A stretch of DNA of 64,000 nucleotides. Source: Desulfomonilaceae bacterium. Its GTDB lineage: Bacteria > Desulfobacterota > Desulfomonilia > Desulfomonilales > Desulfomonilaceae. Each line of letters begins with the position of its first letter. Position 1 is the first letter of the stretch. The notes beneath the pieces were generated by a model, which saw nothing but the letters and a program-made list of their open reading frames with translations, searched no databases and was not told where the DNA came from. Below, piece after piece: positions 1 through 14,221 of this stretch. The stretch lies in assembly GCA_031082285.1 (NCBI GenBank), contig JAVHLK010000002.1:62001-126000 (forward strand), in the 5' to 3' direction. A program made the position numbers and the translations under genes.

Positions 1-553
1 TTTCGATAAAGGTTGCCGAGGGATTTTGTGAAAGTATGACCTCCTTCACTTTTTCCGTCGTTTCCCTGTCGGTGGTGTCGACCTTGTTGATGATGAACTT
101 GTTCGAGGCTTCGATCTGTTTTTCCAATGCGACGAAGACCTCGTACTGTTCCAGAAAGTACGCGGCGTCTATCAGACAGTATTTCTCCAATGATGCGAAG
201 TTTCCCTTAAATACGGGATTGAAGAGATCTCTGCCGATATCGGTGGGATTGGCGACCCCGCTGGCTTCCATGACGAGAATGTCCGGCTGGATCACAAAGG
301 CTATTTGATACAACGCTTTGATGAAATCTCCTTTGACGCATGCACAGAATATGGATCCTCTGCTGATTTCGATCATTTCCAGCTCAGGGTTCTCAACGAG
401 GGCTCCGTCGATGCCTTCCTCACCAAACTCATTCATCAGTACCATGAGCTTTACGTCAGGAGGCGTCTCCTTGAGCATGCGATTGAGCAAGGTGGTCTTT
501 CCGCTCCCCAAAAAACCTGAAATCAGGTACACGTGAACTGCTGCTTGAGTCAT
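1..553 (-). CDS. CobW-like G3E-family GTPase (3' end outside window)
   Basis: P-loop GTPase of the G3E/CobW group, predicted metal or cobalamin-related insertase/chaperone. The visible 184 residues show a Walker A motif GSGKTT (about 16-21), a metal-binding C70-x-C72 pair in place of the usual CxCC, an E-x-S-G stretch (96-99) and a NKVD guanine-specificity motif (about 156-159). The start ATG overlaps the stop of the upstream thioredoxin-like gene (ATGA), so the two are translationally coupled. It is the last visible gene of the unit that begins with the selenoprotein at 2250. In this context it probably services the corrinoid or zinc enzymes of the module; the metal is unknown. The C-terminal CobW_C domain lies beyond the window edge. 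Confidence 0.88.
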   Translation of the reverse strand, partial: MTQAAVHVYLISGFLGSGKTTLLNRMLKETPPDVKLMVLMNEFGEEGIDGALVENPELEMIEISRGSIFCACVKGDFIKALYQIAFVIQPDILVMEASGVANPTDIGRDLFNPVFKGNFASLEKYCLIDAAYFLEQYEVFVALEKQIEASNKFIINKVDTTDRETTEKVKEVILSQNPSATFIE

Positions 554-810
554 TTGTCCGCTCCGGATATATACTTTCTGATCTCCGACTCTATTTGCTC
601 CACTGAGATCGCCTTACCGGTGCTGATCACGTTCTCGTCGATTACCAGGGCAGGCGTGACGTAGACCTTCAGGCGAAAGAAGACCTCCTGATCCGTCACC
701 TTTTCCACGGTAACGGCTTCCTCTCCCCCGATCCGCTCGACCGCCTCGACGGCATTCCGATACAGGGTGTCGCAACGTTGGCATCCGGTGCCCAAGACCT
801 GAACCTTCAT
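550..810 (-). CDS. Small thioredoxin-like redox protein (Thioredoxin_3 / redox-active disulfide type)
   Basis: An 86-residue single-domain thioredoxin-fold protein, cytoplasmic, with the active site C10-Q-R-C13 close to the N-terminus (GTGCQRC) and the cis-Pro region VTPALVIDE near residues 51-59. This layout matches the small redox-active disulfide protein 2 family found in anaerobes. The start chosen is the ATG directly before KVQVLGTG; the upstream extension of the frame has no family features. It overlaps the CobW-like gene by 4 nt and follows DUF2284 by 35 nt. It is one of four thioredoxin-like genes in this methyltransferase module, so a role in thiol or selenol reduction is likely but inferred. 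Confidence 0.85.
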   Translation of the reverse strand: MKVQVLGTGCQRCDTLYRNAVEAVERIGGEEAVTVEKVTDQEVFFRLKVYVTPALVIDENVISTGKAISVEQIESEIRKYISGADK

Positions 811-845
811 GGTGCTTTCCTTTTCGGCAGCGTGGGCAATACGCC

Positions 846-1523
846 TCACACAAGAAGAATCATAGAGTAACTGTTGTACGAATCCTTGACACTTCCGGCC
901 AACTCCACCAACCGTCCCAGCCTCCTGACGGTCTGAAACACGTCTATGGAACATGCTTCCACGGACGGTCGCTTCTCGTTGGGAAACTTGCACCTTTCCG
1001 GGTATGAGCACTTCTTGCAGAGGGCGCACGTGTCCGAGGGAAGGCCGAAGGCCTTGTAGTACCCCATCAGGAAGAGCTTCCTTTCGAGCGCAATCGTTGC
1101 CTTCCACTGCCGTATTTGCCGGCGCCGTTTTTCCGTGGAGTTTCGATAAAAATGCTTGTTGTTGCTGCGACCCAACAAGAGCAGAGCCAGTGAGTATTCG
1201 GAAAGAAGCTCTCGTGTGGCGTCCAGGTTCGGTGATGCAGGCGGACAGCACCAGCTCGTATTGTAATTGGCACAACCGTAACGACACTTAAGTCCCACCC
1301 ATCGAGCCGTGACGATCTCCGCGGTGCGGAGCACTCGTGCCTCATCGAACCCCAGGTCCTTGGCCATGCCCTTAATCTCTTCGATGACCTCGGGTTCCAT
1401 CGTGATCGGGATATTGTCGTCCGGTCTGCACGGCATGTCATGGACTTCAACCGAGTCTTCTTCCCTCGCCGCGGTCCCGCATCTCTTGACGTCCCGCCTG
1501 TTCTTGTCCAACACCAGGGCCAT
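846..1523 (-). CDS. DUF2284 predicted metal-binding protein
   Basis: Cys-rich protein of the DUF2284 family, which recurs near corrinoid methyltransferases in anaerobes. The diagnostic segment is CRYGCANYNTSWCCPP, followed by a second Cys cluster (CALCKKC, then C-x5-C) and the usual C-terminus SYSMILLV. These cysteines probably bind an Fe-S cluster or zinc. The start is uncertain: the ATG at 1523 is given because an SD-like GGAGG lies about 18 nt upstream and AAGGA directly before it. ATGs at 1436 or 1400 would also leave the domain intact, and an upstream TTG extends the frame. Biochemical function is unknown. Confidence 0.8.
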   Translation of the reverse strand: MALVLDKNRRDVKRCGTAAREEDSVEVHDMPCRPDDNIPITMEPEVIEEIKGMAKDLGFDEARVLRTAEIVTARWVGLKCRYGCANYNTSWCCPPASPNLDATRELLSEYSLALLLLGRSNNKHFYRNSTEKRRRQIRQWKATIALERKLFLMGYYKAFGLPSDTCALCKKCSYPERCKFPNEKRPSVEACSIDVFQTVRRLGRLVELAGSVKDSYNSYSMILLV

Positions 1524-1598
1524 TCCTTTTCGACTCAAAGCCTCCTCCCTTCCTATCCGAGTTGTAAGGGTAGGTCTCAAACAAGCTCCTACGTGTGT

Positions 1599-1961
1599 TC
1601 AACAGGACGTGACCGCCGTCTTCTTCGTCTCCTCCCGCGCAGACTCGAATTCCATGCTCACACGGGCGGGCACGTTCAGTCCCAATTCCACCTCCGCCGC
1701 CTTGATCATGGCGCTCAAAACCGGACAGCCGGCATGAGACAAGGCTTTCGATCCCTCTATGAATACCCGGTTCCTTCCAATTCCTCTGCTCAGGACGTCG
1801 CCGATTCCCAGCGACCCCATCTCTTTCACCCTGAGAGCGAGGGCTTGAACGGCCTCGCAGCCGGATTCCAGTTCGATGCGTACCGCACGTCCCTCCTCTC
1901 GACGAGCAATAATTCTCGTGACGAATCCGCAGGACCCGGGGTTCACTCTCACCACCGTCAC
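1599..1961 (-). CDS. DUF6951 family protein
   Basis: A 120-residue soluble protein with the N-terminal pattern VNPGSCGF, a central SGCEAV segment and the C-terminal H-x-GCPVLSAMIKA motif, as I recall for the DUF6951 family of small conserved proteins in corrinoid methyltransferase loci. Start is GTG, supported by AAGGAG seven nucleotides upstream; the gene begins 16 nt after the selenoprotein stop. Three conserved-looking cysteines and one histidine could bind a metal. Function is not established; its place between a selenoprotein and DUF2284 suggests an accessory role in the same module. Confidence 0.7.
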   Translation of the reverse strand: MTVVRVNPGSCGFVTRIIARREEGRAVRIELESGCEAVQALALRVKEMGSLGIGDVLSRGIGRNRVFIEGSKALSHAGCPVLSAMIKAAEVELGLNVPARVSMEFESAREETKKTAVTSC

Positions 1962-1977: not shown

Positions 1978-2250
1978 TCAGGCACTCTGAATGGCCGCCA
2001 TCAATTCTTCCCGAGGCGGGATTTCGCACTGAAATACGATCTGCCCGTCGATGGCCACCGCCGGCAGGCTCCTCGCCTTCAACTCGGCAAAACGAGCCAC
2101 GCCCTCCACTGTACGGAGGCTCCATTCCCGGTACTCAATGTCATCCAAGATGTCTTGCGGCAAACCCTTTACCGCGGCGATCATATAGACGCACGCGTGT
2201 CATTGGGCAAAGTCCGTGACCAAGACTTCTACAACCGGTTTGCGTTTCAT
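1978..2250 (-). CDS. Selenocysteine-containing thioredoxin-like protein (in-frame UGA at 2200-2202 = Sec17)
   Basis: Read through one in-frame TGA, this 90-residue protein aligns without gaps to the complete thioredoxin-like protein at 9196-9588. Residues 14-20 are FAQ-U-HAC here against SVQ-C-AAC there, so TGA falls exactly on the first Cys of CxxC. The following segment (LPQDILDDIEYREWSL against LPKEIQDVIEYKEWSI) and the region LPAVAIDGQIVF are clearly conserved. The ATG at 2250 has a strong SD (AGGAG, 6 nt spacing). The only ATG after the TGA (2184) has no SD and would lose the active site. A SECIS-like hairpin sits at 2157-2175 and a good promoter at 2340-2367. The true stop is also TGA (1978-1980). 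Predicted role: reducing a thiol, selenol or corrinoid partner in the methyltransferase module. Confidence 0.82.
2157..2175 (-). promoter_or_regulatory. Predicted bacterial SECIS hairpin (thioredoxin-like selenoprotein)
   Basis: On the mRNA strand GCGGUAAA pairs with UUUGCCGC (eight pairs including one U-G) around a GGG triloop. Thirty-two nucleotides separate the UGA from the first loop G, within the 16-37 nt range known for bacterial SECIS elements, which need a G in the first loop positions. It lies inside the coding sequence, as bacterial SECIS elements do. Confidence 0.65.
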
Positions 2251-2476: not shown

Positions 2477-4585
2477 CTATTTCTGGTGGAGAATCTCCGG
2501 CGGCACCACACCCTCCAGGTGGGGGAACTCGTCTTTCATGTGAGGCACCTGCATGGCTTCCATGAACTGTTGTTGGAAATCTCCCTCTACCGTGAGTTCG
2601 ATGTACTCGACGTTTACGGCAACCCAGTTCGCTTCCTCCCTCTTTTCCCGGTTCAGCAGTGCCGCACGGGCACCGTCTCCGGCCGCGTTGCCCACGGCCA
2701 GCACCCGGTCAAGGTCGCAATCCGGGAAGAGACCCATAATGAGTGCTTTCGTTTTGTCGACATGAGTACCGAAGGCTCCGGCTATCTTGATCACATCGAC
2801 CTTCTCGAGGCCCATCCGGCGCATCATGAGCTTGCAACCCGTGTACAGAGCGCCCTTACCCAACTGGATCTGGCGAACGTCCTTCTGCGTGATTACCACG
2901 TCTTTGCCGATGGACGTCTCGTTTGCCCACGCGATCACGAATTCAGGCTGTTTCGTGTCGGGGTTTTTCCGGTACCGGTTCGACTTCTGACTCTTACTGA
3001 ACCGGCCGCTCTTGTTTATCACTCCCGCTGCGTAGAGTTCCGCGAGCACGTCCAGAATTCCGGATCCGCATATGCCCTTGGTCTTCATCTCTTCGGGTTT
3101 GGAATACGTGCTCCATGCGTCGCGGCCGATGACCTTGTAGTTCACTTCATGCGTTTCGGGGTCGATGGTGATACGCTCGATCGCGCCCGGGGCAGCGCGC
3201 ATTCCATAGCTCAACTGTGCTCCTTCGAGCGCGGGGCCGGTCGCGCAGGAACAAGAGATGAGCTTTTCCTTATTGCCCAGGACAAGCTCGCCGTTGGTGC
3301 CGATGTCAATGAGGAGCTGCATCTCCTCGCCCTTGTACGGTTCCTCTGCGATGAGGACGCCCACATTGTCGGCTCCGACGAATCCGGCCTCATTCGGCAA
3401 TACATGCACGTACCCGGATCGGTTTATTCCAATGCCCAGATCCCGGGCCTTGATGTCGAGACTCCGGTGGATAACCGGAGGGAACGGAGCGAGACCCACG
3501 AATTCGGGGTCAAGCTGCAACATTATGTGATGCATGGCGGTGTTGCCGACGAGCGTCATGTCAAGCAGGTCTTCAGGGGCCAGGCGCAGGTATGTGTCTC
3601 CGTTGCCTCCCGGGTTGCCCGCGACCGCGACCGCTTCTTCGACAACAACTTCTTCCTCGACCTCCGCCCCTTCGCTTATGGAGTCGACGCCGTCCTCGGC
3701 CTTCTTCTTCTTCTTTTTCTTCGGATGAGTGGATTCGCATCCCTGGACGATCAGGCTGTTCAAACCGTCGAACAGGTCCTTGCTCATGGTTTCCAGGCCG
3801 CCGGGATTCATCATGTGGTACGTGATTCGAGCCATGACGTCCTCGCCGTACTTGCACTGGGGGTTCATCATGGAAGTCGTGGTAAAGACTTCCATGGTTC
3901 GCAAGTTGCAGAAGTAAGCCGCCATGGTCGTTGTTCCCACGTCGATGGCCACGCCGTAGCAGTCTTCTTTCTTTCCGGGCCAAAATCGAATGACTTCCTT
4001 GTCCATCCATACTGCCGTCGTGACGGTCCACTTGCCTTCACGAAGGATTCGAGGAAGCGTCTTGAGGGCATGCCAGTCTACGGTGAGACCGGTCAGACCA
4101 TGGTTCGCTTCGAGCACCCGACAGATGCGTTCAAAGTCTCCGGTCGGCTCCTCAAATGACGGCGGCTCCACTTCGACGTAATAGAGCTTCACCGCGGGAT
4201 TCCACTCGATGGGAATATCCCTCGCGGCCTTACTCACCACCTGTTTGCCTGCCCGAGCTTCCTCAGGTACGAAGACGAGCAGATCGCCATGAACTTTGGC
4301 CACGCACCCAAGCCTGTAGCCCTGTGCCTTCTGTTCGGCATTGAAGAACTTGTCCTCTTCCTCCTGCCACTCGCTGACGTTTTCCTTCTTGGACGTGATG
4401 CCGAACTTCTCGAAGAAGCCTTCTTCGATACGTACCTTGCACTTGCCGCAGACCTTCTTTTCTCCGCAGAGCGCCTCTATGTCCACTCCCAGTTGACGGG
4501 ACGCTTCTATCAAATTGGTTCCTTCATCAATCAAGCCTCGGCGTGCCGACGGCTGGAAGATGACCATGTGTTGCTTGTTCTCCAT
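2477..4585 (-). CDS. RamA-like corrinoid reductive activator (2Fe-2S ferredoxin + ASKHA-type ATPase)
   Basis: A 702-residue member of the COG3894 / RACE group that reduces cob(II)amide to cob(I)amide in corrinoid proteins using ATP. The N-terminal ferredoxin domain has C40, C46, C49 and C94. The C-terminal half has actin-like ATPase signatures: IDVGTTT (about 214-220), LVGNTAMHH (345-353), LIDIGTNGELVLG and the glycine-rich IAGAFGTHVD. An unusual low-complexity insert occupies about 285-332: seven consecutive Lys (289-295), then an Asp/Glu/Val-rich stretch. ATG 4585 is chosen because it directly precedes the ferredoxin domain; upstream residues overlap the thioredoxin reductase region. It lies 19 nt after that gene, likely co-transcribed, and should keep the corrinoid protein at 6132-6824 active. 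Confidence 0.9.
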   Translation of the reverse strand: MENKQHMVIFQPSARRGLIDEGTNLIEASRQLGVDIEALCGEKKVCGKCKVRIEEGFFEKFGITSKKENVSEWQEEEDKFFNAEQKAQGYRLGCVAKVHGDLLVFVPEEARAGKQVVSKAARDIPIEWNPAVKLYYVEVEPPSFEEPTGDFERICRVLEANHGLTGLTVDWHALKTLPRILREGKWTVTTAVWMDKEVIRFWPGKKEDCYGVAIDVGTTTMAAYFCNLRTMEVFTTTSMMNPQCKYGEDVMARITYHMMNPGGLETMSKDLFDGLNSLIVQGCESTHPKKKKKKKAEDGVDSISEGAEVEEEVVVEEAVAVAGNPGGNGDTYLRLAPEDLLDMTLVGNTAMHHIMLQLDPEFVGLAPFPPVIHRSLDIKARDLGIGINRSGYVHVLPNEAGFVGADNVGVLIAEEPYKGEEMQLLIDIGTNGELVLGNKEKLISCSCATGPALEGAQLSYGMRAAPGAIERITIDPETHEVNYKVIGRDAWSTYSKPEEMKTKGICGSGILDVLAELYAAGVINKSGRFSKSQKSNRYRKNPDTKQPEFVIAWANETSIGKDVVITQKDVRQIQLGKGALYTGCKLMMRRMGLEKVDVIKIAGAFGTHVDKTKALIMGLFPDCDLDRVLAVGNAAGDGARAALLNREKREEANWVAVNVEYIELTVEGDFQQQFMEAMQVPHMKDEFPHLEGVVPPEILHQK

Positions 4586-4604: not shown

Positions 4605-5561
4605 TCACAACGATGACGCGTGGACGGCGCTCGTTCGCAGGTATTGGGCCGCACTTTGTGCAGCCAAGGCCCCGTCCGCGGCCGCGGTAATAATTTGCCG
4701 CAGAGGACTGACTCGTACGTCTCCCGCCGCGAAAACCCCGGGCACGGACGTGTTCAGGTTCCCTCCGGTCACGATGAATCCCTCACGGTCAGTCGTCAGC
4801 GCTCCGGCCAAGAAGTCCGTCACCGGGGCCTGGCCGATTCCTATGAAAACCGCCTCCAACGGCATCGTTATTTCTTCATTGGTGTTGACATTCACGAGGG
4901 TCAATCCGCTCACGTTTCTCCGACCCATTACCGCTTTGACCGATCGGGCGGTCAGGATCTGGGCCTTGGGGTCTTTCATGAACCGATCTACCAGCACGGG
5001 CTTGGCCCGAACCTCGTGCGAGCGGGAAACGACGGTCACCGTATCCGCATGCGGCAACAGGGCAAGCGCGGTGTGAAAAGCCGAGTCGCCCCCGCCGACC
5101 ACTGCGGCGCGGCGCCTCTTCATGGTTCTGAGCAGGGGAGCGTCACAGGTCGCGCAGTAGAACACGCCGTTCCCTGCCGGCTTGTCTTCGCCCGGCACCC
5201 CGAGGCGCCGAGGTCGAGCCCCTGTCGCCACGATCACCGCCCGTGCGGCGTAGTGTGCGGAACCACAGACGAGGCGTTTGGTGTCAGCCGAAAAGTCGAC
5301 ACCGGAAACGGATTCCGGAACAGGTACGGAACCCGTCTCGTCCATGAGCTGCTTTATCCATGACGTCATCAATTCCGCGCCGGTGATTCCTCCCGGGAAG
5401 CCGGGATAATTGTCTACGCGATAGTGCCTGATGACCTGACCTCCGGGGGTATCCCCGCCGATTAATATGATGTTGTACCCCGCGCGATGGCTGTACAGTG
5501 CGGAAGTCAACCCCGCCGGCCCGGCGCCTATAATCGCCACGTCATACGTCATGTCCGTCAT
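4605..5561 (-). CDS. Thioredoxin reductase-like flavoprotein
   Basis: A 318-residue low-molecular-weight thioredoxin reductase homologue. It has the FAD-binding GxGxxG (GAGPAG, 12-17), redox centre C136-A-T-C139, nucleotide-binding GGGDSA and the C-terminal FAD motif GVFAAGDV. The NADPH 2'-phosphate motif HRRxxxR of standard TrxB is replaced by SRSHEVR, so NADPH may not be the donor. Start ATG 5561 has GGAGG about 7 nt upstream and overlaps the stop of the thioredoxin gene by 1 nt (TGATG). It probably reduces the CVPC thioredoxin and, through it, the other thioredoxin-like proteins in this module. Confidence 0.92.
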   Translation of the reverse strand: MTDMTYDVAIIGAGPAGLTSALYSHRAGYNIILIGGDTPGGQVIRHYRVDNYPGFPGGITGAELMTSWIKQLMDETGSVPVPESVSGVDFSADTKRLVCGSAHYAARAVIVATGARPRRLGVPGEDKPAGNGVFYCATCDAPLLRTMKRRRAAVVGGGDSAFHTALALLPHADTVTVVSRSHEVRAKPVLVDRFMKDPKAQILTARSVKAVMGRRNVSGLTLVNVNTNEEITMPLEAVFIGIGQAPVTDFLAGALTTDREGFIVTGGNLNTSVPGVFAAGDVRVSPLRQIITAAADGALAAQSAAQYLRTSAVHASSL

Positions 5562-5860
5562 CAGCGCTCCTCCCGATCGAGAAGGGCCGCATCGATGGCC
5601 CCGCACAGTTCCTCCGGACCGGGTATGGCATCGAACACCAACCTTCCCGCGAACAAGATGGACGGCATGGGAAGAATTCCGCCGTGGATCTTGCACAACT
5701 CCAAGTATCGAGCCGCGTCTCGGGGTCTTTTGGTCTCCACGACACGTACCTCGATTCGGTTGCGGTACCATTCCGCCACATACTCCACCGCGGCTATCGC
5801 ATATTCGCAAGGCACACAGTGCGGACCCTCCGAAACGATCTCCACAAGGAGCGGTTTCAT
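5561..5860 (-). CDS. Thioredoxin-like protein (CVPC active site)
   Basis: A 99-residue thioredoxin-fold protein with active site C15-V-P-C18 after a short first strand and the cis-Pro segment MPSILFAG (about 65-72). Start ATG 5860 follows GGGAG at 7 nt. It is translationally coupled to the thioredoxin reductase gene immediately downstream, which makes the pair a likely reductase/substrate couple. CxPC resembles NrdH/glutaredoxin-like centres, but overall length and context fit a dedicated thioredoxin. The redox partner is inferred. Confidence 0.85.
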   Translation of the reverse strand: MKPLLVEIVSEGPHCVPCEYAIAAVEYVAEWYRNRIEVRVVETKRPRDAARYLELCKIHGGILPMPSILFAGRLVFDAIPGPEELCGAIDAALLDREER

Positions 5861-6131: not shown

Positions 6132-6824
6132 TTAGTTCTGTGCGGCCTCTTCACCCAGCTTGCGAAGCTGACCGATCATCTTGATCGCCTCTTGGACCGC
6201 ATTCCCGGCGCTCTCCGCATATCCGTCCGCACCAAAGAGCTTTGCAACGTCTTTGGTAACGGGCGCTCCGCCAAGCATGATGGCCACATCGGGGTTCTTC
6301 TCTTTGATCATGGCAATGACCTTCTTCATTCCCATCATGGTGGTGGTCATCATCGCGGAGAGTGCCACGATCTCCGAGTCGGTCCTGAGTTGCTCTTCGG
6401 CAAACTTCTCCAGGGGTACGTCGCGTCCGAGATCGTGGACCGTGAAGCCTCCCACATCGAACATCATCTTGATGAGGTTCTTTCCGATGTCGTGCACATC
6501 GCCCTGAACGGTTCCTATAACGACCTGCCCCTTGGGTTTGCCTGCGCCGTTCGAATCTTTCTTGAGGTGGGGTTTGAGGATGTCGAGGCCCTTGTACAGG
6601 GCATCCGCGCACATGAGAATCTCCGGAACGAAGTACTCTTGACGGTCGTACAGATCGCCTACGATCTCCATGCCGGCCGCAAGTCCGTTCATGATCGCGT
6701 CGAACGGGTCCAAGCCTTCTTCAAGTGCCGCGGTCGCGTACTCGACTACTCGGTCTTCCTCGTATTCAACGACTCCTTCGGAAAGGTTGTCCAAGATTTC
6801 CTTACGTCTTTCTTCCGATACCAT
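6132..6824 (-). CDS. Corrinoid (B12-binding) protein, MtbC/MtaC/MtgC type
   Basis: A 230-residue methyltransferase corrinoid protein. The N-terminal four-helix cap (about 1-88) precedes a Rossmann B12-binding domain (about 98-225) with the base-off/His-on signature D109-x-H111-x-x-G114 (GDVHDIGKN), the downstream SAMMTTTM segment and GGAPV. His111 should be the lower axial cobalt ligand. Start ATG 6824 is preceded by GGAGG at 6 nt; upstream frame residues are not family-like. It lies 29 nt downstream of the MtaA-like gene at 6854. It should carry the methyl group from a substrate methyltransferase to the MtrH-like or MtaA-like enzymes and be reactivated by the RamA-like protein. Confidence 0.95.
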   Translation of the reverse strand: MVSEERRKEILDNLSEGVVEYEEDRVVEYATAALEEGLDPFDAIMNGLAAGMEIVGDLYDRQEYFVPEILMCADALYKGLDILKPHLKKDSNGAGKPKGQVVIGTVQGDVHDIGKNLIKMMFDVGGFTVHDLGRDVPLEKFAEEQLRTDSEIVALSAMMTTTMMGMKKVIAMIKEKNPDVAIMLGGAPVTKDVAKLFGADGYAESAGNAVQEAIKMIGQLRKLGEEAAQN

Positions 6825-6853
6825 TGGTTTCCTCCGTGCACCCACTCGGTGCT

Positions 6854-7894
6854 TTACACTCTGCCGACGGCAGGCGTCGGTCTTATCCCATATTTGCGGA
6901 CCGTCTTTACCCACATTTCCACGTTTTCCTTCTTGACCTCGGGCCAGAGGTCGCACCCGGGCCAGACCGCATCGACTCCCGCGTCGATACAACCCTTGAT
7001 GACTCCCTCGACCTCAGACGCGTCCATGGTGCAGAATGTGCCGTACGGGTCGAAGTTGCCGAGCAAGATCACCTCGTCACCGATCTTTTTGCGTGTTTCC
7101 GCAAGGGTGTTTTTCTGATCGAAGCTCAGGGCGTCCGCACCGCAGTCGTTCATCAAGTCTACGATCAGGTCCGTACCCCCGCAGATATGCAGGATCTTTG
7201 GGGACTCGAGTTCGGCGAAAATCTTCCGGAGATAAGGCTGAATCAACTGCTTCCACATGCGCGGGGAAAGCAGATCGGTCCCGGATCCCATTTCTCGGAT
7301 GGTAATGTAATCCGTGCCCAAAGCCTGATATCGCTTGGCCACATCAATGACCACGTCAGTCATTTTCTCCATGAAGCCTTCTACTTTTTCCTTTTCCTTC
7401 TTGATGCCTTTGAGCAACACGTCGAGCTCGAAAACCTGGCCCCCCAGGGTGAAGGGACCCAGAACCCAGGAACCCACCGCATATTTCCCGTCGGCGATCA
7501 GTTTCTTGAACGCGTCTTCTACGACGGGCATCCTGGCCTTCGCGGCATAATCGGGGTCAATCTCGATGGATTCGTAGTTGTCCCACTTGCTGGGAACCGT
7601 TGGATAGAGAATGCCTTCGGCATCCGCGTACACCGTGCACCCGCGTCCCATTGCTTCGGGAATCGTGCACATGTCATAGGGGACCACGACCGAATCGAAT
7701 CCGTAGATGTCTGAGGACGTGGAAGCGGAATCCGCGAGGTAGTCGGGCGAACCGTGAACCTCGGCGAACCGTATTCCCATTTTGTCGATGGCCTGAATCG
7801 TTACCATGCCCATTCCGCTGAACACCGGCATGGTGTCGATGGGCTCGCGTTTGAAGAACCTCTTAACCCGTTCTCTGGGGGTCATTTCCGGCAT
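6854..7894 (-). CDS. MtaA-like (uroporphyrinogen decarboxylase family) corrinoid methyltransferase, Cys form
   Basis: A 346-residue protein of the UroD/MtaA/MtbA superfamily, which transfers methyl groups to or from a corrinoid protein via a zinc-activated thiol. Zinc ligands are visible as H236-x-C238 (ILHICGGT) and C314 (WPGCDLWP), the complete family set. It is directly upstream of the corrinoid protein gene (29 nt). ATG 7894 is used; an in-frame ATG at 7885 is possible. It is the Cys/His-complete counterpart of the selenoprotein at 9604-10644, also 346 residues. Whether it acts as substrate methyltransferase (MT1) or thiol methyltransferase (MT2) cannot be told from sequence. Confidence 0.9.
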   Translation of the reverse strand: MPEMTPRERVKRFFKREPIDTMPVFSGMGMVTIQAIDKMGIRFAEVHGSPDYLADSASTSSDIYGFDSVVVPYDMCTIPEAMGRGCTVYADAEGILYPTVPSKWDNYESIEIDPDYAAKARMPVVEDAFKKLIADGKYAVGSWVLGPFTLGGQVFELDVLLKGIKKEKEKVEGFMEKMTDVVIDVAKRYQALGTDYITIREMGSGTDLLSPRMWKQLIQPYLRKIFAELESPKILHICGGTDLIVDLMNDCGADALSFDQKNTLAETRKKIGDEVILLGNFDPYGTFCTMDASEVEGVIKGCIDAGVDAVWPGCDLWPEVKKENVEMWVKTVRKYGIRPTPAVGRV

Positions 7895-7984: not shown

Positions 7985-8932
7985 CTACATTCCCTTCAAT
8001 TGCTCCACGAAGTCCGGGAACAGTTTGTGCAAAGGATGCGTATCGATCTCGGGTAACCTCTTGGTCTCGGAAAATGCCAAGGTGGCGGTGAAGGCATCCG
8101 CCATGGCAACTGCGGGAAATATCCGCTCTGAGCCGGTCATGGGACCCGAAAAGATCATGTCGTGCCACAGCGTGGATGACAGAGCTTCCAGCGCGGCGTC
8201 TGCCGCGGTCCATCCCTTGGAGCCCCACATCTCTTTCGCGGCCTTCCACATGTACGAACCGTTGGAGGGCGCACTACCGCATGGGAATCCCCATTTCTCC
8301 TTAATGAGTTTGTTGGCGATCGAGCACATCGCGGTCGCGGGACCGTTCATCACCGACGTGTCCACAAAGATGCTCTCAAACTTAGCGCCGACCTTTTCAA
8401 TGGCATCGAGCAGCGTTTGAGTCCCGGAGATTCTTCCGGTAGGCATCTGGTCGGCCATGTCAAAAGCCACCAAGAGCACGTGTTTGACGCCGATGGAGGA
8501 GATCTCCCTGATCTCCGTTTCCAGGTCCTTTTCCCAAACCGTGAGGCTGTTGTAGAACATGCGGTCCAGAAGACCTTTTTCCGCGCAATAGGCCGCGGCC
8601 TCAATTTTGGGTTTCATGACCCACGCGTCAATGCAAAACGGCATGTCCGTTACGCCGACCACGAAGTCGATGTACCCCTTCAGTTCGTCACCCTTTGTGC
8701 CGACAATGTCGGCCATCACGGGACAGCCGGTTTCCCGGGCAAGCCTGTCGCAGGTCTGGAGGAGTTCTTGTGCGCGTTTCTCGTCAAACCCCTCCTTGCG
8801 CTTGCCCTCAAATATCTTGTCACCCTTCTGAAATATGGAAGGTACGATTACGGTGGGATATTGGCCCGTTTGGCCGCCGAATTTCACACCGCCGACCTCA
8901 CACACCTTCTGCTCGGTCTCAAATGTAAACAT
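7985..8932 (-). CDS. MtrH/MtgA-like methylcorrinoid:tetrahydro(methano)pterin/folate methyltransferase
   Basis: A 315-residue TIM-barrel protein of the MtrH family (pterin-binding methyltransferases). In bacteria, MtgA-type members move the methyl group from the corrinoid protein to tetrahydrofolate. The N-terminus FTFETEQKV-x-EVGGVKFGGQTGQYPTV and the FPCGSAPSNGSY and FVDTSVMNGPATA segments are family-typical. Start ATG 8932 has AAGGAG 5 nt upstream; the longer frame lacks conserved residues. It lies 90 nt upstream of the MtaA-like gene on the same strand. Its presence suggests methyl groups are fed into one-carbon metabolism (Wood-Ljungdahl direction) rather than to coenzyme M. Confidence 0.9.
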   Translation of the reverse strand: MFTFETEQKVCEVGGVKFGGQTGQYPTVIVPSIFQKGDKIFEGKRKEGFDEKRAQELLQTCDRLARETGCPVMADIVGTKGDELKGYIDFVVGVTDMPFCIDAWVMKPKIEAAAYCAEKGLLDRMFYNSLTVWEKDLETEIREISSIGVKHVLLVAFDMADQMPTGRISGTQTLLDAIEKVGAKFESIFVDTSVMNGPATAMCSIANKLIKEKWGFPCGSAPSNGSYMWKAAKEMWGSKGWTAADAALEALSSTLWHDMIFSGPMTGSERIFPAVAMADAFTATLAFSETKRLPEIDTHPLHKLFPDFVEQLKGM

Positions 8933-9195: not shown

Positions 9196-9588
9196 CTATT
9201 CCTTTCGCCTCGTATGGGCGCCCGCCTCGGCTCTGGCGAGGTTGGCCTCCAGGTTGTCGAAATCGAAGCCCTTGTCCCGAAGCATCCGGATCGTTGTGGC
9301 AAGCTCGGGGGTGGGAGCCCGTTCCGCCATGGCGTCAATCAGCTCCTCGTACTGGGGTATGATGGATTCGAAGAGGAGATCGCCCTGAATGGCTATGGTG
9401 GGCAACACCTTACCCTTCATCTCGAGGAACTTGCCGATGCCTTCCTTGTTCTTTATGGACCATTCCTTGTACTCGATCACGTCCTGAATTTCTTTGGGCA
9501 AGGCCGCGATCGACTCCATCATGTAACCGCACGCCGCACATTGGACGCTGTCCAGGGTGAGCACGTCTATCTTGATGGTTTCCGACAT
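9196..9588 (-). CDS. Thioredoxin-like protein with C-terminal helical extension (Cys paralogue of the selenoprotein)
   Basis: A 130-residue protein with active site C17-A-A-C20, a conserved LPxxIxDxIEYxEWSIKN block and the cis-Pro region LPTIAIQGDLLFE. About 40 C-terminal residues beyond the fold are mostly helical and charged. It is the complete Cys homologue of the 90-residue selenoprotein at 1978-2250 and shows where the Sec belongs. Start ATG 9588 has GGAGG at 7 nt. It begins 15 nt after the true stop of the selenium-containing methyltransferase, so the two are almost certainly co-transcribed. It may reduce that enzyme's selenol or its substrate adduct; this is inference. Confidence 0.85.
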   Translation of the reverse strand: MSETIKIDVLTLDSVQCAACGYMMESIAALPKEIQDVIEYKEWSIKNKEGIGKFLEMKGKVLPTIAIQGDLLFESIIPQYEELIDAMAERAPTPELATTIRMLRDKGFDFDNLEANLARAEAGAHTRRKE

Positions 9589-9603: not shown

Positions 9604-10644
9604 TTACTTCTTCACCATGTGGTGCGGATACTTTGCGTAGTAGGTGTTGTACCACTCGACGGCCTCGATGGCTTGATCCATGTGTTCCACCGGAACATCG
9701 TAGGGCATGTCTCAGCCGGGTGCGAAGACGTAGCCCGTGCTGCCCCCTGCAGCGAGGGACACGATCGCGTCTTCGCGTGGAGACAGCAGACCAAGGGACA
9801 AGGCCAGGGTGAGTTTCAGGTTGCCGCCGAACCCCACCCCGTGTTTGAGGGCCACATCGCGCACGTAAGGCAGGTTCAGCTGTTCATCGATGGCAAAGCC
9901 GTCGGTCCCGACCTGGGCCACCTCCTCCAAACACTTGGTGGCATCGCCGCAGATGAAGAAGCTCGATACTTTGCCGGCCTTCTTCGTTGCCTGGATGGCG
10001 GGCTGCGTGGCCGGCGTGACGAACTCCCTGAACGTTTCCGGCTTGATCTGCGACGCGACCGGATCGGTTATGGCGATCACGTCGCAACCGATTTCCTCCG
10101 CGTATATCCGTGCGGCTTCTCCGGCCACTTCTCCCGAGAAATCTATGATCTCTTTGGCCAGAGCCTTGTTCTTGTACACATCCGTGAAGATGCGCACCCC
10201 GCGAAGATGACTCGCCAGTGTCAAAGGGCCGCACAGTATGCCATAAAGCGCCGTGTCCGGCAGAGCTTCCTTGACTTTCTTGCCGGCCTCGATGATGACC
10301 GGCCATCTGCCGTCCCCGGGGCCCGGAATCTTGATTCCCGATTCGGCCAAGGTCTTCTTATCCAACGGGTGTCCCGTGATCGAAGGCGGATTGTCCGGCC
10401 ACCATTTGTGTTCGCACCCCATGGATATGGCTTCCACAGTCAGGTCGAACAACAGAGGGATCCCATCGGCCTTGTATCTCTCGGCCGCAAAAATAACGCC
10501 CTTTGCAATCAAGTCCGGGTCCTTGAGAAACTTGTCGGCGGGCTCTCCAATCAGATAGGCGCTGTGGACACCCGAGTACGGGACCCACGGCACCTTTTCC
10601 GTCGGTAGGCCCTTAACGGCATTGATAACGTCCTGCTTTCCCAT
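9604..10644 (-). CDS. Selenocysteine-containing MtaA-like methyltransferase (in-frame UGA at 9712-9714 = Sec311)
   Basis: UroD/MtaA-superfamily methyltransferase. Translation from ATG 10644 (AGGAGG at 5 nt) gives 310 residues ending YVFAPG, then TGA, then 35 more in-frame residues beginning DMPYDVPVEHMDQAIEAV and a TAA stop at 9604-9606. In this family the last zinc ligand is a Cys in the pattern PGCDxxP. The paralogue at 6854-7894 has WPGCDLWP with C314, and both proteins become 346 residues long when TGA is read as Sec. The post-TGA residues match the family C-terminus (P-x-E-x-x-x-x-AIEAV). A SECIS-like hairpin lies at 9683-9697. The H-x-C motif is F230-I-C232, so the usual His ligand is Phe. 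Predicted role: methyl transfer through a zinc-bound or free selenolate; substrate unknown. Confidence 0.88.
9683..9697 (-). promoter_or_regulatory. Predicted bacterial SECIS hairpin (methyltransferase selenoprotein)
   Basis: On the mRNA strand UGUUCC and GGAACA form a perfect 6-bp stem closing a GGU triloop. Twenty nucleotides lie between the UGA and the first loop G, inside the window known for bacterial SECIS elements, and the loop starts with G. Confidence 0.65.
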
Positions 10645-11175: not shown

Positions 11176-13590
11176 TTATGCAATATCTATCTTCCGCAAA
11201 TAGGCCGCCAGGTTGCGATCTCGGCGCGTCAGTCCCAACTTCCTGCGAATCGAGATCCGTTGCAGGCGAATCGTGTCCGGACTCTTTTCCAGGATGAACG
11301 CGATCTCATCGGTGGTCTTCCCCAAGCGTATCAGCTGGGCCACCTCACGCTCCTTTTCAGACAGTTTGAGGCTTGGGTCTTCGAGGTCCGGTTCCTTTTC
11401 TCTCGCCGCGCCTCCCATGAGTTCCTGGAGCATGAGCTTTGCGTGGCTCTCAACGAGGTTCGGCTTGTTCTTGGACTCCAACACGCGGTAGACGCGCTCC
11501 GTTATCCGTTGAGTCAAATCCATCACCACCTGTTCGCACGCTCGGACACGCTCTTCCTCGGCGTGCCTGAGCAGAGTGCTGAGCGCCGTATTCTTGTCCC
11601 GAAGCTCCTGACTCTTTGCGGTGAGCCTCTCTTCGAGGCGTTTGCGCTCGGTCAGATCGTGACACAGGCCCACGGTTCCGTACGGAGTACCCAAATCGTC
11701 CTTGAGGAGCGCGAACACGGAGAACGCGACGCCGAGACTCTGATCCCCTCGAACAAACTCGTATTCTCCCTTCCAGACGTCGCCGTCACGGAGCACGTCT
11801 CGCGAGGTCTGCTCCAATTGGTCTCCGGTTGTGTTCTGCGTGAGGATGTGAGCGGGTTGTCCGAGGATCTGTTCCTTGCGATATCCGAACATTCGTTCGC
11901 TGGCAGGGTTCCAGTCGATGATGTTGCCGTCGAGGTCGGTGACTATGATGGCTTCATCCATGTGTGAAAACACGTGACGGTATTGGTTGAGATGACGCTC
12001 CTCCCTGCGCATGGCCGTCACATCCTGAAAGAGAAAGCACACTCCGTCCCCGATCCTGCACAACCGGCACCGCAGCAGCACGCGATCGGGATCCTCGGCT
12101 CTCAATCGGAACCGGATCTCGAACTCGCCGTACTTGCCCGTGTCCAGGGCTTCGCACGCGTAACCCAAGAGTTGGTCTCGTGCCTCATCATCAACGAAGA
12201 TCTCCGGCAGACAGCGTCCCGACTGGAATTTCTCGTTCAGCCCCAGCAGTTTCCCTGCAGCCGGGTTCATTGCCGTGCACCTGAAATCCGCGACGGCGCC
12301 CTGAGCGACCCGCACGGGTCTCATGAGGATGAGAGGATGTGGAATGGAGTTGAGCGTCTTGGCTGAAATGGTCTCCGTGGAAACGGTGTCCGCCGTTCCG
12401 GGGTGCTCCTCACGGCCGGCCCCGACCACGGCGATCACCGCGATGTTTTCCGCAGAGCCTGCGTCCACGCGATCCATCACCAGGTGCACTATGGCCGGCC
12501 GGCCGGGTGTTCCCACCGGGGGAAGCGCCTCCTCGCCTCGGCCGGCGCCGCCGGCGACGCCTTCCAGCGTGTGCCGCCATCGCAGCGCAACTTCGGGGGG
12601 GAAGGGCAGATCGGTTATCTTGCGTCCTATCACATCGGCAAGGTCCAAAGAGAGCCCAAGTGCCTGATTGACTAAGGACAGGGCAGTGTCGGAAATCCTC
12701 AGAAAGCCCTTGGCGGGGAGGTACGTGTAGAGCCCCAGCACAGAGGATTGGTACAGCACCTGATATTCGCGGGATTGAAGACTCTCGTACGGATCATAGA
12801 ACAGGGACACGATTTGCCTGGCCTGACCGAGTTCGTCCGGAAGGACCAGGAGCGTCATCGAGAGAGTCACCACGTGATTGTCCGATCTCTTGATTCTGAC
12901 GCGCAGTTCCTTTCGGCCCAACTTGTTGGCCCATGCATCTTCGATCGCACAGAGAAAGGAACCGATGCTGTCGGCATCGGGGAGCAGATTCTGGACCCAT
13001 GCCTGGATGTGAGCCAGCTCCTCCACCGAGTACCCGGTAATTCTTTGGGCTTCCGCATTGCACGCCACAAAAAAACCGTCCCGTCGTATGCTGATCATGC
13101 CCACACTGTCCTGACGGTGCAGCAACGCGAGGAGCGCCTCGGTGCTCTTGCGAGCCATGGCCATGTTGCCGGCCACGCGCTGGGTGAGCTGCGCATAGTC
13201 TTCTCTGGCCTCGACCACCTCCCGGAGCTTTGCCACGCAAGAGATGAGGGGATCCGATCCCGAGGTATGACTGAGCAGGACCGGACGATAGTATCGCGGC
13301 AAATTGAGGCTGCTCCAGGAGAGCCCATGGTCCCCAATGACGATGATCTCGATTTCCGGGTTTATCTGCTTGATTCCCGTGATCAGCGACTTGAGATCCA
13401 TGCCGGTGGGTTTGAGATCGATGACCACGATGAGGTGATGCCTGGGCTGCGCGGCAAGGATCTCCAAGGCGCTCACTCCGTCGGGCGCGGTGGTTATGAC
13501 AAGAGAGTCCGATTCCGAGTGCAGTGCTTCCTGGAGAGTCAGGGATACCGAATCGGATCGGCCGATCCAGAGAAGGTTCTGACTAGACAT
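11176..13590 (-). CDS. Multi-PAS sensory regulator with C-terminal LuxR-type HTH
   Basis: An 804-residue cytoplasmic regulator with no transmembrane segment. Domains in order: a receiver-like N-terminus (about 1-125, with VVIDLKPTGMDL around the phospho-Asp position), three or four PAS-type segments (clear ones include the FFVACNAEAQRITGY region and AIIVTDLDGNIIDWNPASERMFGY), a coiled coil near SQELRDKNTALSTLL, and a LuxR/GerE HTH at the end (LSEKEREVAQLIRLGKTTDEIA). The start at 13590 is chosen over a further in-frame ATG at 13641 because AAGG precedes it at 6 nt and the receiver-like fold begins there. Its position upstream of the methyltransferase block suggests it controls that block in response to a small ligand, redox state or a phospho-signal. 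Confidence 0.85.
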   Translation of the reverse strand: MSSQNLLWIGRSDSVSLTLQEALHSESDSLVITTAPDGVSALEILAAQPRHHLIVVIDLKPTGMDLKSLITGIKQINPEIEIIVIGDHGLSWSSLNLPRYYRPVLLSHTSGSDPLISCVAKLREVVEAREDYAQLTQRVAGNMAMARKSTEALLALLHRQDSVGMISIRRDGFFVACNAEAQRITGYSVEELAHIQAWVQNLLPDADSIGSFLCAIEDAWANKLGRKELRVRIKRSDNHVVTLSMTLLVLPDELGQARQIVSLFYDPYESLQSREYQVLYQSSVLGLYTYLPAKGFLRISDTALSLVNQALGLSLDLADVIGRKITDLPFPPEVALRWRHTLEGVAGGAGRGEEALPPVGTPGRPAIVHLVMDRVDAGSAENIAVIAVVGAGREEHPGTADTVSTETISAKTLNSIPHPLILMRPVRVAQGAVADFRCTAMNPAAGKLLGLNEKFQSGRCLPEIFVDDEARDQLLGYACEALDTGKYGEFEIRFRLRAEDPDRVLLRCRLCRIGDGVCFLFQDVTAMRREERHLNQYRHVFSHMDEAIIVTDLDGNIIDWNPASERMFGYRKEQILGQPAHILTQNTTGDQLEQTSRDVLRDGDVWKGEYEFVRGDQSLGVAFSVFALLKDDLGTPYGTVGLCHDLTERKRLEERLTAKSQELRDKNTALSTLLRHAEEERVRACEQVVMDLTQRITERVYRVLESKNKPNLVESHAKLMLQELMGGAAREKEPDLEDPSLKLSEKEREVAQLIRLGKTTDEIAFILEKSPDTIRLQRISIRRKLGLTRRDRNLAAYLRKIDIA

Positions 13591-13693
13591 GCACACCTTC
13601 GAGGGTGAGATTTCATGATCGCGGCCTTGCAAGATTGACATCGCATTCAGCTCAATTTATCATAACACGTTTTATTTCTTTCGAGGTGCCGCG

Positions 13694-14221
13694 ATGGCCG
13701 AGACAGGCAAAATTCAGGTTTTCACCGGTGAGGGGAAGGGCAAGACCACAGCCGCCTTGGGGCTCGCATGGAGAGCCATAGGCCGTGGCCTGAAAGTCTT
13801 TATGGTTCAATTCTTGAAAGCGCCGGACACCTCTGGAGAACACTTCGCAGCTCACGCGTTTGCTCCCATGATGACCATCAAACCAATGGGCCGAAAAGGA
13901 TTCATTCGCAGACGCGGCTGCGAACCGCTCGATACGGTCATGGCCGAGCTCGCTCTGGAAGAGGCCCGTACTGCCATGCTGAGCGGCGAATACGACGTCA
14001 TCATCCTTGATGAGATAAACGTCGCAGTGAACCTGGGCATTATTGACGTGAAAGATCTCTTGGAGTTCATGGACGCAAAGCCTGAGAACATCGAACTCGT
14101 GCTCACCGGCCGGTATGCACACCCTGAGGTGGTGCTTCGGGCCGATGTAGTACTTGAGATGAGAAAGATCAAACATCACTTCGACGAGGGTGTCCCGGCC
14201 AGGGAGGGAATCGAGTACTGA
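13694..14221 (+). CDS. cobO: Cob(I)yrinic acid a,c-diamide / cob(I)alamin adenosyltransferase (CobA/CobO/BtuR type)
   Basis: A 175-residue ATP:corrinoid adenosyltransferase that makes the Co-C bond of adenosylcobalamin. The P-loop is G12-E-G-K-G-K-T-T19. Other signatures are DEINVAV (Walker B region), ELVLTGRYA and the C-terminal IKHHFDEGVPAREGIEY, so it is complete and of normal length. ATG 13694 follows GAGGTG by about 5 nt. It is divergent from the PAS regulator with only about 100 bp between the starts. The location supports corrinoid-centred metabolism. A degenerate paralogue lies at 24679-25170. Confidence 0.95.
   Translation: MAETGKIQVFTGEGKGKTTAALGLAWRAIGRGLKVFMVQFLKAPDTSGEHFAAHAFAPMMTIKPMGRKGFIRRRGCEPLDTVMAELALEEARTAMLSGEYDVIILDEINVAVNLGIIDVKDLLEFMDAKPENIELVLTGRYAHPEVVLRADVVLEMRKIKHHFDEGVPAREGIEY

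Follow-up and report, generated by a model that had tools for sequence, protein, structure and literature searches.

The closest described relatives of the methyltransferase analyzed here are MtaA and the other soluble coenzyme M methyltransferases (PDB 4ay7), with which it shares a UroD TIM barrel, a third-ligand position occupied by Cys or selenocysteine (Sec), and a corrinoid protein as partner. The type I mlp gene clusters, proposed by Kountz and Balskus to serve methyl-selenide/methyl-sulfur metabolism, likewise combine MtaA-like methyltransferases with one corrinoid protein and an activase, and occur in anaerobes that often have Sec machinery (PMC10418091). Sec is known in corrinoid methyl-transfer biology from HgcA, the Sec-containing corrinoid protein of mercury methylation (NF040863, PMC13188914), whereas in the locus described below it is the methyltransferase that carries the Sec. 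CdmB and the UroD-superfamily O-demethylases are also UroD-fold substrate:corrinoid methyltransferases of anaerobes (PMC13222342), but CdmB contains no zinc, and neither Sec nor a link to a thioredoxin is described for it. Our locus lies in a window of 64,000 nucleotides from the genome of a Desulfomonilaceae bacterium, and all coordinates given without a locus label refer to this window. It encodes a UroD/MtaA-superfamily methyltransferase with Sec, which we call SecMT. In comparison with MtaA, SecMT stands in a bacterial gene cluster with MtrH in place of coenzyme M, and it has an additional thioredoxin-like (Trx) partner.

The SecMT gene (9604..10644, minus strand) was assigned from its URO-D match, codon conservation, and an AlphaFold model. 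Its frame has 346 codons followed by TAA, with a single in-frame TGA, codon 311, at 9712..9714. The original prediction was that family sequence continues beyond this TGA, and the data bear this out. The Pfam URO-D match (PF01208; 4.5e-49, 167.8 bits) covers residues 3–330 and spans the TGA. Past the TGA, the differences per codon position are 0.168/0.124/0.424, compared with 0.202/0.123/0.588 upstream, so that by this measure the substitution pattern stays coding-type. TGA is the ordinary stop of 7 of the 19 genes in the window; thus, the genome does not use code 4, and TGA is not read as Trp. The UGA = Trp reading of SecMT was ruled out on this ground and because homologues have Cys at the site.

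One genome per species was scanned, which gave 51 SecMT loci. Codon 311 is covered by 50 sequences, including the window copy and a paralogue from the same genome: 47 read TGA, two (L019 and L021) read TGT (Cys), and one reads ACA (Thr); TAA and TAG do not occur. The TGA carriers belong to Thermodesulfobacteriota, Bacillota (Desulfotomaculum copahuensis), and Actinomycetota, a spread over three phyla in which Sec has been kept at an active-site position. The organisms that carry SecMT are anaerobes, mostly sulfate reducers, and include the isolates Desulfatitalea alkaliphila and D. copahuensis. Genomes of the same family, with SecMT at 92–94% identity, have TGA too, which speaks against a sequencing error; the codon is found again as TGA in independently assembled genomes. 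At the level of sequence, the TGA is confirmed as genuine and not an artefact. Could it be a true stop? Translation with table 11 does end there, and the product would then have 310 residues, with the downstream frame a relic. The chance that this is correct is negligible, given TGA in nearly all loci from three phyla with no replacement by TAA or TAG, the protein-like evolution downstream, the existence of Cys homologues, and the Sec machinery of the genome. We dropped this reading on the codon conservation and the coding-type substitutions past the TGA. The identification of codon 311 as selenocysteine, as originally predicted, is strongly supported and almost certain; none of the findings named beforehand as refuting it turned up, since homologues have neither TAA nor TAG, the sel genes are present, and other assemblies also read TGA.

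In a tree of the sampled SecMTs, the Sec form is basal and widespread, the two Cys sequences group as a single derived clade, and next to the window's own group the Thr paralogue stands out as a fast branch. The Thr311 paralogue, located elsewhere in the same genome, is 62% identical to SecMT. More distant relatives (P0003 and P0004, 36% identity) have Cys at the Sec311 site. SecMT is patchy in its distribution: at a threshold of E ≤ 1e-80 it was found in 9 of 395 genomes from the phylum. Phage records gave no SecMT match. One two-contig genome of 6.5 Mb (G005) has two TGA copies, at C1 1030208-1031242 and 3795122-3796156.

The source genome has selA (598 bits), selB (394 bits), and tRNA-Sec (selC; 71 bits), each above its cut-off, as well as a selD with an in-frame TGA of its own. 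With these genes present, UGA is expected to be read as Sec elsewhere in the genome as well. Loss of the Sec machinery was rejected as the cause of the Cys form, since G011 and G014, which have it, retain selB and a Sec-type selD. Just 3′ of the UGA is a SECIS-like hairpin, GUUCC-GGU-GGAAC (9682..9698, minus strand), assigned from frozen codons and the predicted fold; its form across the family is GUUCC-NGN-GGAAC, directly 3′ of the UGA. Among 44 distinct sequences, Val317 is encoded by GTT in all 44, compared with a GTT usage of 0.20 upstream of the TGA, while Pro318 is CCG in 42 and Glu320 is GAA in 39. The folding energy relative to synonymous shuffles is moderate (median z −1.65), with 13 of the 44 below p 0.05, and the window's own hairpin is not significant (p 0.376). 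Covariation is uninformative, as the main group shows no variation in the stem and Actinomycetota have it in a shifted register. An Rfam scan of the window gave no match, the hairpin included.

The AlphaFold model of SecMT (pLDDT 93) has the UroD fold in addition to the URO-D domain. Its best match in the PDB is Methanosarcina MtaA, 4ay7, with a TM score of 0.86–0.88 at 28% identity, in agreement with the predicted placement in the UroD/MtaA superfamily. The NCBIfam model for MtaA/CmuA, TIGR01463, scores only 130.4 bits, below its cut-off of 235.4. The window also contains an MtaA-like methyltransferase (Mlp; 6854..7894, minus strand), identified by profile matches and its motif. The zinc motif of MtaA is HxC...C, and the window Mlp has it in canonical form, whereas SecMT reads FxC...U. 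U311 aligns with C314 of the Mlp and, in MtaA, with the third zinc ligand. Thus, the proposal that the Sec occupies a zinc-ligand position holds as far as homology of the position goes but not for the motif as a whole. Since the SecMT family members inspected have F, Y, or L in place of the His of HxC, a selenolate on the same zinc is not established. The Mlp had also been taken as a paralogue of SecMT; the alignment of C314 with U311 stands, but close paralogy was rejected, as the two proteins are only 21% identical, and at that identity their equal length of 346 residues is incidental.

What takes the place of the zinc motif? Cys232 is retained in SecMT, and C138 and H146 are invariant in 46 SecMT family members and in the two 36% Cys relatives; the Mlps have Leu/Ile and Gln/Ala at these two positions. 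In the Thr paralogue, C138, H146, and residue 311 have all changed together. DSSP analysis of the model gives barrel strands at 132–138, 226–231, and 305–308, and residues 138, 232, and 311 fall at the ends of these strands or just past them, where TIM-barrel active sites lie. We infer that the site has been rebuilt as Cys/Cys/Sec, possibly with His146. Sec311, Cys232, and Cys138 would share the mouth of the barrel, with His146 nearby, and these four residues may form a metal-binding and/or redox-active site that replaces the zinc site of MtaA. One alternative is a classical MtaA-like enzyme: a catalytic zinc, with Sec311 standing in for the third Cys as ligand, would activate a thiol or selenol, and the role of the Trx would be limited to maintaining the selenolate in its reduced state. 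The alignment of U311 with the zinc ligands of MtaA and the Mlp, the retention of Cys232, and a CobW/G3E GTPase, of a metallochaperone-type family, in the cluster are as expected for such an enzyme. Nevertheless, we consider it rather unlikely, since the His of HxC is missing in the inspected members, C138 and H146 are present instead, and no Trx fusion was seen on the MtaA-type Mlps of the same clusters.

The Trx partner, a thioredoxin-like protein with a CxxC motif (TLDSVQCAACGY), is encoded at 9196..9588 on the minus strand and was assigned from its linkage to SecMT, its Sec version, and its fusions. The gene is directly downstream of SecMT in 51 of 53 distinct TGA copies (the two without it are L022 and L056) and in none of the three Cys or Thr copies. 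It is absent genome-wide from three genomes of genus g5 (G011, G014, and G017), the first two of which have the Cys form. In the Actinomycetota loci, the partner is itself a selenoprotein, with the motif LDSLQUPACGY. Furthermore, two Cys relatives, one in G055 and one in a Subdoligranulum record, carry the domain of this partner as a C-terminal extension of the methyltransferase, with 31% and 45% identity, respectively, to the window Trx. The fused forms lie at L105:9118-10467 (minus strand) and L108:119-1495 (plus strand); the former adjoins genes for a CobW GTPase, a DUF5714 protein, RACo, and a homologue of MtmB with an open frame in which no TAG occurs. Linkage, fusion, and co-loss point to a functional partnership of SecMT and Trx, which is very likely on these comparisons, with the reservation that losses are few and the Cys and Thr copies represent very few independent events. 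The partner resembles the HUIPC-motif thioredoxin-like (seleno)proteins (NF047660) in being small, in having Cys or Sec, and in occurring in the same clusters, but it scores 33 bits against that profile (cut-off 105) and has the motif TLDS-Q(C/U)xAC. A PDB search with the partner gave no match. We regard this partner as a larger finding than the Sec codon itself; the original prediction mentioned neither the Trx nor the second selenoprotein described below.

The near-constant presence of the Trx brings in another possible mechanism, that Sec311 is a redox nucleophile and not a metal ligand. It would attack a methylated or oxidized substrate, and a relay of Trx and thioredoxin reductase would resolve the intermediate, which could tentatively be drawn as a methyl-selenide or as a selenenylsulfide with Cys232 or Cys138. 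Glycine reductase, a selenoprotein-dependent reductase, is a model for such chemistry. The linkage, fusion, and co-loss of the Trx partner fit this idea, as do the thioredoxin reductase and several further (seleno)thioredoxins in the clusters. However, the architecture is unchanged in relatives that have only Cys, so that Sec chemistry is dispensable, and we treat the redox nucleophile as a serious possibility that falls short of being probable.

The genes that follow the Trx in the window are all on the minus strand. They encode an MtrH-family methyl-corrinoid:tetrahydrofolate-type methyltransferase (7985..8932; PF02007, 3.3e-53; NF002142 over cut-off; start inferred from homologues), the Mlp, a methyltransferase corrinoid protein (6132..6827; PF02310/PF02607; TIGR02370, 203.6 bits), an HUIPC-family-like thioredoxin with HCVPC (5561..5860; NF047660, 85 bits, below the cut-off of 105), a thioredoxin reductase (4605..5564; TIGR01292, 306 bits, below the cut-off of 343), and a corrinoid reductive activase of the RACo type (2477..4585; PF14574, 9.1e-96). 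Further along are a DUF6951 protein, conserved in the cluster (1599..1961; PF22263, 2.8e-23), a DUF2284 predicted metal-binding protein (846..1580; PF10050, 8.9e-43), an MTH895/ArsE-type thioredoxin (550..816; TIGR00412 over cut-off), and the N-terminal part of a CobW-like G3E GTPase (1..553) that continues beyond the window, assigned by comparison with L070 17546-18553 and with CobW in other clusters. MtrH, Mlp, the corrinoid protein, RACo, DUF6951, and DUF2284 are on the same strand as SecMT in most sufficiently long loci, and SecMT also clusters with small thioredoxins, the CobW-like GTPase, and thioredoxin reductase. We take this gene content to be the part list of a system leading from a methyl donor to tetrahydrofolate. 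A type I mlp cluster is defined by Mlp2 and Mlp3, a corrinoid protein, and an activase, with no tetrahydrofolate methyltransferase; the window cluster differs in having MtrH and a single Mlp. In general, SecMT clusters have the MtrH/tetrahydrofolate-type methyltransferase and normally one Mlp, while SecMT and Trx modules are not described for type I clusters, nor are Mlps described there as Sec proteins (PMC10418091).

On the combined data, SecMT is probably a corrinoid-dependent enzyme of the UroD superfamily with the rebuilt Cys/Cys/Sec site, coupled to the Trx and feeding the corrinoid protein and MtrH. In this mechanism, UGA 311 is decoded as Sec, as far as sequence can show it. To judge from the gene content, the methyl donor of SecMT is most likely a substrate with a soft atom (S, Se, or a metalloid), and the methyl group would pass to the corrinoid protein of the cluster, then to the MtrH homologue, and finally to tetrahydrofolate. 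The thioredoxin reductase of the cluster would feed the adjacent Trx, the near-constant partner of the Sec form, which most likely serves either to return the Cys/Sec site to its reduced state or to pass on a substrate or product bound through a thiol or selenol. The direction of methyl transfer, the metal or redox role of the Sec, and the substrate class are all inferred here, and the earlier suggestion that Sec confers higher nucleophilicity or an altered substrate range is speculation.

Could the soft atom be a metalloid? In favor of SecMT as a demethylase for methylated metalloids, for example, methylarsenicals, are the DUF2284 domain, shared with arsenite-methyltransferase/MbdU selenoproteins, and the ArsE-type Trx, but both are weak, name-based links. 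The Desulfotomaculum copahuensis cluster includes an MIP channel fused to a thioredoxin domain (L024:7780-8907, plus strand), which is a weak hint in the same direction. However, no arsR, acr3, or arsC was recognized among the neighbors examined, and an SsuA-like transporter, present in one SecMT cluster, points elsewhere. A metalloid demethylase is thus improbable. A bolder version of the preferred mechanism is Trx-coupled, selenium-dependent demethylation, in which the cognate (seleno)thioredoxin would join the UroD Cys-Cys-Sec site in catalysis, either by supplying reducing power or by carrying the soft atom once it has been demethylated. We hold this version as doubtful; if true, it would add a previously undescribed mode to corrinoid methyl transfer.

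No earlier report of a Sec-containing UroD-family methyltransferase was found, in line with what had been supposed at the outset. There is no UroD-type entry in the 2026 inventory of 119 prokaryotic selenoprotein families and no Sec UroD-type family in the NCBIfam June 2026 release. Five papers (PMC13188914, PMC12013277, PMC2398784, PMC5029168, and PMC5322559) contain no Sec UroD/MtaA-type methyltransferase; an earlier mention elsewhere is not fully excluded. Within the literature covered, SecMT is a new selenoprotein family that belongs, as a Sec variant, to a known enzyme superfamily and is unusual in its coupling to a Trx. It would add to the inventory a family that is missing there, and in many sulfate reducers it would extend gene models that now end at the TGA. 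It points to a methyl substrate consumed in anoxic environments. Sec at the active site of a corrinoid methyltransferase across three phyla is a natural experiment on the role of selenium in methyl transfer, and recent relatives with Cys or Thr, either having the Trx partner or lacking it, allow a direct test of its contribution.

The second selenoprotein of the window, which belongs to the SecMT cluster, is a Sec-thioredoxin-like protein of 90 residues (TDFAQUHACVY; 1978..2250, minus strand), with its Sec TGA at 2200-2202 and a TGA as normal stop too. Its TGA-bearing relatives occur in G005, G012, G061, and several other loci. Six Actinomycetota clusters (L027, L029, L034, L038, L039, and L061) have two kinds of Sec-thioredoxin, one with LDSLQUPACGY and one with GHCVPU, a CxxU motif. 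Directly upstream of the window cluster is a gene for a PAS/LuxR-type regulator (11176-13641, minus strand), and such a regulator is likewise upstream of the paralogous cluster and of the close relatives L019, L021, and L022. The paralogous cluster of the same genome (G000:C88:45410-48601; L002, L071) has the Thr311 copy, MtrH, Mlp, corrinoid protein, RACo, DUF2284, and the PAS regulator, and it is without the Trx partner. A cob(I)yrinic acid a,c-diamide adenosyltransferase-like gene is near the window cluster (13694-14221, plus strand), and similar genes are near other SecMT loci.
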